A stretch of DNA of 64,000 nucleotides from positions 199,055-263,054 of the forward strand of contig JACPUC010000006.1 in NCBI GenBank assembly GCA_016192455.1, read 5' to 3'. The DNA comes from Candidatus Tectimicrobiota bacterium (GTDB lineage Bacteria > JACPUC01). Every line of letters starts with the position of its first letter. The first letter of the stretch is position 1. The position numbers and the translations under genes are program-made. The notes under the pieces are model-generated. The model worked only from the letters and a program-made list of their open reading frames with translations. It was not told the origin of the DNA and made no database searches. Positions 28,356 to 54,710 of the stretch are shown here, one piece after another.

Positions 28356-28798
28356 GCACTCTCTCCCTGATCCCGCGTGCGGGGCTGGCGAATGAGGGGA
28401 CTCGCCGCGGCCGGGCAGGAGGCCCCGTTGCCTGCGATGGATACGTCCGCTGGAGGCTTCTGCTCTGGGCACGTCTGCTCCGAGCGTTTCCGAGCCAGGC
28501 GGCGCCGAACGGGGAAACCCCTTGCTTGGGGGTCATCGCCTCAATATATTAAAAAGGTTTATGAGGCGCGGGCAAGTCGGCTTCGCAAAGGGCGGCGTGT
28601 CGGCCCCGCGCGGCGGCCCGCCTTTTGATGAACCGCCGCATGCCGCGGCGGCGCGCCGGGGTCCGCGTCAACAGAGGGAGTGGGCGGTGGCTGAGCTTGG
28701 GAGCGCCCCGGCGCCGCAGCGTAGGCTCTGCGCCGCCACCACTGATCGCGCAAGGACTGCACGCCATCTCATTTGATGACCGCGGAGGGAGCAAACCG
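28356..28798. other. Divergent spacer and long leader before the glutaredoxin gene
   Basis: Separates the minus-strand NUDIX gene from the plus-strand glutaredoxin gene. It holds a good plus-strand promoter at 28522-28550 and, after it, about 240 nt of GC-rich leader with several self-complementary segments (GGTGGC near 28685 with GCCACC near 28735; GCAG...CTGC inside). No known riboswitch class is recognised. Confidence 0.5.
28522..28550 (+). promoter_or_regulatory. Promoter upstream of the selenocysteine glutaredoxin
   Basis: TTGCTT (28522-28527), a 17 bp spacer and TATATT (28545-28550), followed by AAAAAGG. It probably starts the transcript for the glutaredoxin and perhaps moaD/moaE. The predicted leader of about 240 nt is long. 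Confidence 0.6.
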
Positions 28799-29038
28799 AT
28801 GGCCGATTCGATTACCATGTACTCCACCACCTGGTGAGCCGCCTGCAGGGTGGCCAAACGGGTTTTGGACCAGCTTGGTGTCGAGTATCGCGTGATTGAC
28901 GTGGAAGAGGATGAAGAGGCGGCGCGGCGCGTCATGGAGCAGAACAAGGGTAATCGGACCGTGCCGACGTTCCAGATCGACGGCGCCTGGTACACGAATC
29001 CCGATCCGGCGACCCTCGAGCGGTTGGTGCGTGGTTGA
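28799..29038 (+). CDS. Selenocysteine-containing glutaredoxin-like protein (in-frame UGA)
   Basis: Reading through the TGA at 28835-28837 joins MADSITMYSTTW to AACRVAKRVLDQLGVEY and gives a 79-residue glutaredoxin/mycoredoxin-like thiol oxidoreductase. UGA falls exactly on the first cysteine of the CxxC active site, giving Sec13-Ala-Ala-Cys16. Family features follow: TVPTFQIDG (cis-proline loop) and TNPDPATLERLV. GGAGGG (28784-28789) lies upstream of ATG 28799. A SECIS-like hairpin follows the UGA. Sec-containing glutaredoxins are among the families reported in prokaryotic selenoproteome surveys. Conventional gene calling would start at GTG 28850 and lose the active site. A nonsense mutation is the alternative, less likely because the rest of the gene is intact and UGA hits precisely the redox residue. 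selA/B/C/D are not in the window. Confidence 0.82.
28838..28871 (+). promoter_or_regulatory. Candidate bacterial SECIS element
   Basis: Directly after the UGA: stem GG-CCAAA (28852-28858), loop CGGGT (28859-28863), TTTGG-A-CC (28864-28871) with one bulged A. The loop has G in its second position, 23 nt past the UGA, inside the distance range known for bacterial SECIS elements. A competing shorter hairpin (GCCGCC/GGTGGC, 28838-28854) starts at the base next to the UGA. Confidence 0.6.
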
Positions 29039-29141: not shown

Positions 29142-29399
29142 ATGCGGGTGACGGTGAAGTTCTTCGCGGCGCTCCGGGAGGTGGTGGGAAGCCGCGAACT
29201 GCAGCTCCAACTTGACGACGGCAGCACGGTGGCCAGTCTGCTCGAGCGTCTCAGCCGCGAGTATCCCCGCCTGGGGGCGCTCTGTCAGGCAGCCGCCCCG
29301 ACGGTGAACCAGGAGTACAGCTCGCTGGGCGCCGAGCTGCACGAGGGAGACGAGGTGGTGTTCATCCCCCCGGTGAGTGGAGGCTGCGATGATCTGTAG
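29142..29399 (+). CDS. moaD: Molybdopterin synthase small subunit (MoaD) with extra C-terminal tail
   Basis: An 85-residue ubiquitin-fold sulfur carrier that, as a C-terminal thiocarboxylate, gives sulfur to MoaE for building molybdopterin. The fold is clear (VTVKFFAALREVVG, STVASLLERLSREYP, LHEGDEVVFIPPVSGG). MoaD normally ends at Gly-Gly; here Gly80-Gly81 is followed by Cys-Asp-Asp-Leu before TAG. The tail must be removed, or something else used, for the carrier to work. ATG 29142 follows a weak GGGG. The 3' end overlaps the moaE start by 11 bp, so the tail may be a by-product of the overlap. The neighbours moaE, moaB/mog and moeA confirm the molybdenum cofactor context. Confidence 0.87.
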   Translation: MRVTVKFFAALREVVGSRELQLQLDDGSTVASLLERLSREYPRLGALCQAAAPTVNQEYSSLGAELHEGDEVVFIPPVSGGCDDL

Positions 29400-29838
29400 G
29401 ATCACCAGAGACAAGATCGACACCCCGGCACTCCTGGAGGCGGTGAAGCATCCCGAAGCGGGGGCGGTCCTGGCATTTGAAGGGATCGCGCGCAACAACT
29501 CGCTCGGGCGGCGCGTTCTCTACCTGGTGTACGACGCCTACCCGGAAATGGCCGAGAAGAAGCTGCGGCAGATCGGCGAGGAGATCGCCGCCAAGTGGGG
29601 CATCACCCGGCTGGCGATGGTGCACCGCATCGGGCGCCTGGAGATCAGCGAGGCGAGCCTGGTGATCGCGCTGGCGTCGGCGCACCGCGCCGATGGGTTT
29701 GCGGCCTGCCGCTACGCCCTGGAGCGCATCAAGGCGATCCTGCCGGTATGGAAGAAAGAGGTGTGGGAAAACGGTGAGGAGTGGATCGAGGGGAAGGACT
29801 TCGCCCCCTTCGACCAGGAGGCGGCCCTGAAACGCTGA
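29389..29838 (+). CDS. moaE: Molybdopterin synthase catalytic subunit (MoaE)
   Basis: A 149-residue large subunit of molybdopterin synthase, converting cyclic pyranopterin monophosphate to molybdopterin with sulfur from MoaD. Motifs: GAVLAFEGIARNNSLGRRV, YDAYPEMAEKKL, the MVHRIGRLEISEASLVIALA core, AHRADGFAACRYALERIK, and the catalytic WKKEVWENGEEWIEG near the C-terminus. ATG 29389 lies inside the 3' end of moaD (11 bp overlap), which implies translational coupling. The length is typical. Pathway partners moaA and moaC are not in this window; moaB/mog and moeA lie 2 kb downstream beyond two PHP genes. Confidence 0.94.
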   Translation: MICRITRDKIDTPALLEAVKHPEAGAVLAFEGIARNNSLGRRVLYLVYDAYPEMAEKKLRQIGEEIAAKWGITRLAMVHRIGRLEISEASLVIALASAHRADGFAACRYALERIKAILPVWKKEVWENGEEWIEGKDFAPFDQEAALKR

Positions 29839-54296: not shown

Positions 54297-54377
54297 CTTC
54301 TCCGCCAAAGGCAAACTGCCCGAAAGGGTAGGACGCAAAGCCACTGGCCTGAAAAGGCAGCAGGGCTGCCGGAGAGG
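54297..54377 (+). ncRNA. Cyclic di-GMP-I (GEMM-I) riboswitch aptamer
   Basis: All class landmarks are present. P1: CTTCTCCG (54297-54304) pairs with CGGAGAGG (54370-54377). P2 runs from the invariant GGCAAAC (54310-54316) to GGACGCAAAGCC (54331-54342), capped by CCC-GAAA-GGG, the GNRA tetraloop (54322-54325) that docks into P3. P3 contains CTGGCCTGAAAAGGCAG. The nucleotide aligned with G20 of the Vc2 aptamer is G, which favours c-di-GMP over cGAMP. A terminator-like hairpin follows two bases later, then a small gene. Confidence 0.93.
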
Positions 54378-54464: not shown

Positions 54465-54710
54465 ATGCAGCCGGTCACCCAAGTTGTCCAGGGTTACCGA
54501 GTCCCCCGCTACGACTCTCGCCAGCATCCCCGACGCCAACCGCGGGGGAAGAAGGAGGATCGCTGCGGCGCCGCCGTGGAAGCCGCTGCGTGCCTGCCGG
54601 AGGAGTTGCCGCCGAGCGCGGCCGAGATCGAGGTGCTGGATCAGCTCTATGAAGAAATCTGCCGGCGCATGGGAGTCGGCAACCGCAGCCGTCTCGATCT
54701 CCTTGTGTAA
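54465..54710 (+). CDS. Small protein of unknown function under c-di-GMP riboswitch control
   Basis: 81 residues; no known family recognised. The N-terminal half is basic and Arg/Gln/Pro-rich (PRYDSRQHPRRQPRGKKEDR); the C-terminal half is acidic and helical (EIEVLDQLYEEICRRMGVG). There is no signal peptide, membrane helix or metal motif apart from two cysteines in the middle. A near-perfect Shine-Dalgarno GAGGAGGTGA sits five bases before ATG 54465, one of the best in the window, which supports real translation. It is the only gene directly behind the c-di-GMP-I aptamer and terminator, so its product should belong to the c-di-GMP response (motility, biofilm, envelope). The function is otherwise unknown. 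Confidence 0.7.
   Translation: MQPVTQVVQGYRVPRYDSRQHPRRQPRGKKEDRCGAAVEAAACLPEELPPSAAEIEVLDQLYEEICRRMGVGNRSRLDLLV

Follow-up and report, generated by a model that had tools for sequence, protein, structure and literature searches.

An in-frame UGA very probably encodes selenocysteine in a mycoredoxin-like glutaredoxin of a selenoprotein-rich bacterium

Glutaredoxins that carry selenocysteine (Sec) were already counted in 2006, with three cases (PMC1794560), and PMC13188914 includes the Sec glutaredoxin (PF00462, UxxC) in its catalogue of prokaryotic selenoprotein families. One Sec glutaredoxin, cGrx1 of Clostridium oremlandii, is natively a Sec protein with catalytic residue 13 and resolving Cys16, and was crystallised as a Cys variant (PMC7642778). 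None of the literature titles and abstracts searched links selenocysteine with mycoredoxin. The locus described here lies in a window of 64,000 nucleotides of contig JACPUC010000006.1 from a Candidatus Tectimicrobiota bacterium; positions are those of this window unless another contig is named.

When the in-frame UGA is read as Sec, a reading frame with no other damage encodes a complete 79-residue glutaredoxin, MADSITMYSTTW-U-A-A-C...GNRTVPTF (Table 1), whose full translation is MADSITMYSTTWUAACRVAKRVLDQLGVEYRVIDVEEDEEAARRVMEQNKGNRTVPTFQIDGAWYTNPDPATLERLVRG. The coordinates that the initial annotation gave for the gene and its UGA are exact, and the ribosome site that it proposed upstream of the ATG is plausible. 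It had also predicted that gene calling would truncate the gene, and this was reproduced: standard ORF calling gives only the frame from the internal GTG, which lacks the active site, and a 5' piece that ends at 28837.

Table 1. Positions of features at the glutaredoxin locus and of related genes in the genome bin
Feature	Position	Strand	Details and basis
Glutaredoxin gene, proposed to contain Sec	28799..29038	+	79 residues, Sec13, end stop TGA 29036-29038; sequence, profile matches, fold
In-frame TGA, proposed Sec codon at first Cys of CxxC	28835..28837	+	Sequence, Mrx1 alignment, Sec machinery in bin
TGC, resolving Cys16 in U-A-A-C motif	28844..28846	+	Sequence
TVPTF, thioredoxin-fold cis-Pro loop, residues 54-58	28958..28972	+	Sequence, PDB alignment
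GGAGGGAG, purine-rich, plausible ribosome-binding site before ATG 28799	28784..28791	+	Read from sequence
Shortened ORF, 62 aa, start GTG 28850	28850..29038	+	Standard ORF calling
Candidate bacterial SECIS hairpin	28846..28877	+	Stem 28854-28858/28864-28868 (CCAAA/TTTGG), apical loop CGGGT 28859-28863
moaD-like gene, downstream neighbour	29142..29399	+	ORF list; name from reading the translation
moaE-like gene, downstream neighbour	29377..29838	+	ORF list; name from reading the translation
YruB-like PTURPC and UXX-star family 1 glutaredoxin-family genes (L113, L115)	C27:118646-118825; C23:136803-136982	-; +	UGA at first Cys

The read-through protein matches the Pfam glutaredoxin family (PF00462) with an E value of 5e-16 and 59.1 bits, above the cut-off of 22.9, and it combines the glutaredoxin fold with a CxxC-type U-A-A-C site and the TVP cis-Pro loop. 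Its best NCBIfam model is that of mycoredoxin (TIGR02200; E 9e-22), where, with Cys in place of U, it scores 77.2 bits and stays below the equivalog cut-off of 89.5 bits. In a PDB sequence search, residue 13 pairs with the catalytic Cys of Mycobacterium tuberculosis Mrx1 (2lqo, E 3.8e-11), and homology continues unbroken on either side of the UGA in both the Pfam and the PDB alignments. AlphaFold2, run on the single sequence with U as C, predicts the full β-α-β-α-β-β-α fold (pLDDT 89) with residue 13 directly before helix 1, and the closest PDB structure to this model is Mrx1 (TM 0.82); the Cys variant of cGrx1 (7c10) follows with a TM of 0.75. These profile matches, the Mrx1 alignment and the predicted structure bear out the earlier proposal that read-through restores a complete glutaredoxin/mycoredoxin fold in which Sec13 replaces the first Cys of CxxC. 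At this column the homologues of the WCxxC branch carry Cys, as was seen both in the alignments and in the rows of a phylogenetic tree, and the in-frame UGA is aligned to a conserved redox Cys with homology on both sides, the arrangement found in selenoprotein genes.

The Sec interpretation was checked further by a search for the Sec machinery in the genome bin that contains the window contig, a draft of metagenome type (4.46 Mb, 31 contigs, 88.2% complete, 2.34% contamination). SelB (366 bits, cut-off 242) and SelA (596 bits) are encoded by adjoining genes, the tRNA-Sec gene selC scores 75.5 bits and has the anticodon TCA (UCA) according to ARAGORN, and SelD (389 bits) has an in-frame TGA of its own at the active-site column (KVAG-U-AAKLGPGDL). 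The four genes selA, selB, selC and selD therefore occur together in one genome bin, and the absence of selB or selC, which the initial annotation had named as refuting the Sec reading, was not observed.

In-frame UGA codons at catalytic positions recur in other redox genes of the bin. Eight of the 13 genes with an AhpC/TSA domain have one, each at a redox-active position, in the motifs FWATWUPYC, GYWUPYC, RTTWUQSC, RGTWUKSC, RGLFUGDC, FTPGUEN, AITUPPY and a double YWUPKU. All three glutaredoxin-family genes of the bin, namely the window gene, a YruB-like gene (PTURPC) and a UXX-star gene, have UGA at the first Cys, and the UXX-star gene scores 96.9 bits against the curated NCBI UXX-star selenoprotein family 1 (cut-off 72). 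With SelD, the UGA genes number at least 12 from the few families searched, and this bin is a selenoprotein-rich bacterium of a lineage unsampled below the rank of domain. The gene with the double motif (L071; C9:76107-76466, + strand) is peroxiredoxin-like and has its two TGAs three codons apart, with one compact hairpin 21 nt past the second; Prx-like UxxU selenoproteins appear among those listed in PMC13188914. The gene with the GAITUPPY motif (L074; C1:78518-78919, + strand) is deiodinase-like, and its best NCBIfam match, deiodinase_rel, reaches 101.9 bits, below the cut-off of 250.

This pattern bears on two other explanations of the window codon. Numerous in-frame UGAs in one genome would also be expected if UGA had been globally reassigned, for example to Trp or Gly, and were an ordinary sense codon here. 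However, the UGAs fall on Cys columns and number one in each gene (the single UxxU gene has two), tRNA-Sec, SelA, SelB and SelD are all in the bin, and several of the UGA-bearing redox genes also terminate at UGA. UGA is thus both stop and Sec codon in this organism, which excludes global reassignment for practical purposes. Alternatively, an error of sequencing, assembly or binning may have introduced the UGA, the real codon being TGC or TGT, or the contig may come from another organism without Sec machinery. The bin is a draft with 2.34% contamination, as given above, and tetranucleotide composition did not discriminate whether all of its contigs belong together. Nevertheless, a consensus error precisely at the catalytic Cys codon is a priori very unlikely, and UGA-bearing redox genes are found on contigs C1, C3, C5, C9, C20, C23, C27, C30 and C31 in addition to C2; such an error is highly improbable.

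A codon-usage scan for further UGA genes, applied to the window and to the stretches around selAB, selC and selD, was not discriminating. With a position-specific GC filter combined with Sec-like motifs, the glutaredoxin gene alone remained convincing. Elsewhere in the window, a c-di-GMP-I-GGC riboswitch aptamer is found at 54301-54374 on the + strand (71.1 bits, gathering threshold 59); it precedes a small ORF starting near 54465.

Downstream of the UGA, the hairpin with a G-containing apical loop that the initial annotation had described is present, but it is not exceptional against the background of ordinary coding positions. The distance from UGA to loop is 21 nt, equal to within one base to that in the YruB-like paralogue, and the stem can be extended over bulges. 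The hairpin (-12.9 kcal/mol, 21 nt, loop CGGGT) falls formally within the limits of the bacterial SECIS model given in PMC13188914; in DNA this rich in GC, 79% of background coding positions satisfy the energy limit as well, and that limit is uninformative here. A tighter score was defined by an uninterrupted helix closing a loop of 3-7 nt with an early G, 16-24 nt past the UGA. By this score, which was devised after sight of the bin's other selenoprotein genes, those genes differ as a group from the background (median 17 versus 7, Mann-Whitney p 3.8e-6), and some of them have strong hairpins: TGCAACTC-GGC-GAGTTGCA, GCCAGCTC-GGC-GAGCTGGT and TTGAAGGA-GTC-TCCTTCAA. Helix scores as good as that of the window hairpin occur at 16% of ordinary coding positions, and energies as good at 45%. 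Unconstrained folding of the UGA region did no better than that of shuffled sequences (z 0.15 and -0.54) and preferred a different structure. The window hairpin is consistent with a SECIS element, is weak on its own and is not proof of one. The case for Sec is made by the machinery, the genome-wide UGA pattern and the homology, not by the hairpin.

Among the 39 rows of a glutaredoxin-family tree, the read-through protein groups with the mycoredoxin-like WCxxC rows on one side of a supported branch (95/86). The 15 other rows on that side are all without UGA (two have a degenerate motif), and the remaining UGA rows lie across the branch, so that, given the supported branches, UGA must have been gained or lost at least twice. 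A DNA pattern search (YxxxWUxxC-111 nt-[T/S]VPT) in 84,980 species genomes found no genuine UGA orthologue; two matches, from Paenibacillus and a cyanobacterial MAG, were full of stops and were rejected as chance. A TIGR02200 search of 386 other genomes returned Cys forms alone, and a protein search of genome contigs found no relatives. None of the genomes compared is related to this one below the rank of domain, and because near relatives are absent among them, the search for the UGA in other organisms is a weak test. In an unrelated genome (G031), two YruB-like glutaredoxin genes on the - strand (L046 and L048) have PTUxxC motifs with in-frame TGA.

That the searches met the UGA in no other member of the WCxxC mycoredoxin-like subfamily would, like the weakness of the window hairpin, also suit a pseudogene. 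A single-base change suffices to turn a catalytic TGC or TGT codon into TGA, and the nonsense mutation would leave a dead gene, or a 12-residue peptide and an N-truncated product from GTG 28850. Yet the rest of the frame is undamaged, and among 79 codons the stop has fallen on that of the catalytic Cys, as in 11 other redox genes of the bin, which has the full Sec machinery; a pseudogene is very unlikely. The window gene is almost certainly a genuine selenocysteine glutaredoxin in which UGA 28835 is decoded as Sec.

In the mechanism that we propose for this Sec glutaredoxin, SelB and tRNA-Sec (UCA), together with a hairpin shortly downstream, would allow the ribosome to decode UGA 28835 as Sec, yielding a 79-residue glutaredoxin fold with a putative U13-A-A-C16 redox pair. 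Attack on disulfides or mixed disulfides would come from the Sec13 selenolate, and Cys16 would resolve the selenenyl-sulfide. The MshC model matched only cysteinyl-tRNA synthetase (cysS-type) in the 88%-complete bin, below the cut-off, which makes mycothiol an improbable donor. A TGA within the MshC match was considered as a Sec codon and rejected; it is the stop of gltX directly before cysS. Likewise, no glutathione synthetase ATP-grasp (GshB) domain was found in the bin, and a glutathione donor is therefore improbable. Although the bin is incomplete, the electron donor of the Sec glutaredoxin is probably neither mycothiol nor glutathione, and more likely donors are a reductase of the thioredoxin type or some other thiol. 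The many Sec/Cys peroxiredoxins and disulfide reductases of the bin would be the likely clients. On balance, we favour an independent conversion of Cys to Sec in the mycoredoxin-like WCxxC branch, in an unsampled lineage whose set of selenoproteins is large, where mycothiol and glutathione synthesis were not detected and another electron donor would serve.

The position of the gene just upstream of moaD-like and moaE-like genes had suggested a link between selenocysteine and molybdenum enzymes, which found no support in this bin: none of its 17 molybdopterin-domain matches has a UGA. The top match reads as the alpha subunit of a formate dehydrogenase, and it carries Cys (RVCHSPS) where Sec is usual. 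The neighbourhood with moaD/moaE was not seen in loci of about 3 kb around homologous glutaredoxins, and the molybdenum connection remains one of adjacency only.

In comparison with known systems, the window protein resembles cGrx1 in its glutaredoxin fold, its UxxC site and its proposed UGA-encoded Sec, and also in numbering, Sec13 and Cys16 being at the same positions. The motif is U/C-P-H-C in cGrx1, whereas it is W-U-A-A-C in the window protein, whose sequence is nearer to mycoredoxins. The YruB-like and UXX-star selenoproteins, one of each in the bin, are likewise small glutaredoxin folds with Sec at the first Cys, but they have PTUxxC or TUPYT motifs and are situated on the opposite side of the supported branch. 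Mrx1 is the nearest solved relative by both sequence and fold, and shares the WCxxC, GNRTVPT and TNP motifs; in contrast, it has Cys where the window protein would have Sec, the window protein is under the TIGR02200 cut-off, and its bin shows no MshC. Standard annotation shortens this gene and loses the active site, and the recurrent UGA at catalytic positions in this bin shows why; a selenium-rich bacterium of an unsampled lineage is worth a full selenoprotein annotation. Sec glutaredoxins were known before, and what is mildly new, and well supported, is the placement of one in the mycoredoxin-like WCxxC subfamily, which adds a subfamily to the Sec glutaredoxins and leaves the general view of selenocysteine use unchanged.
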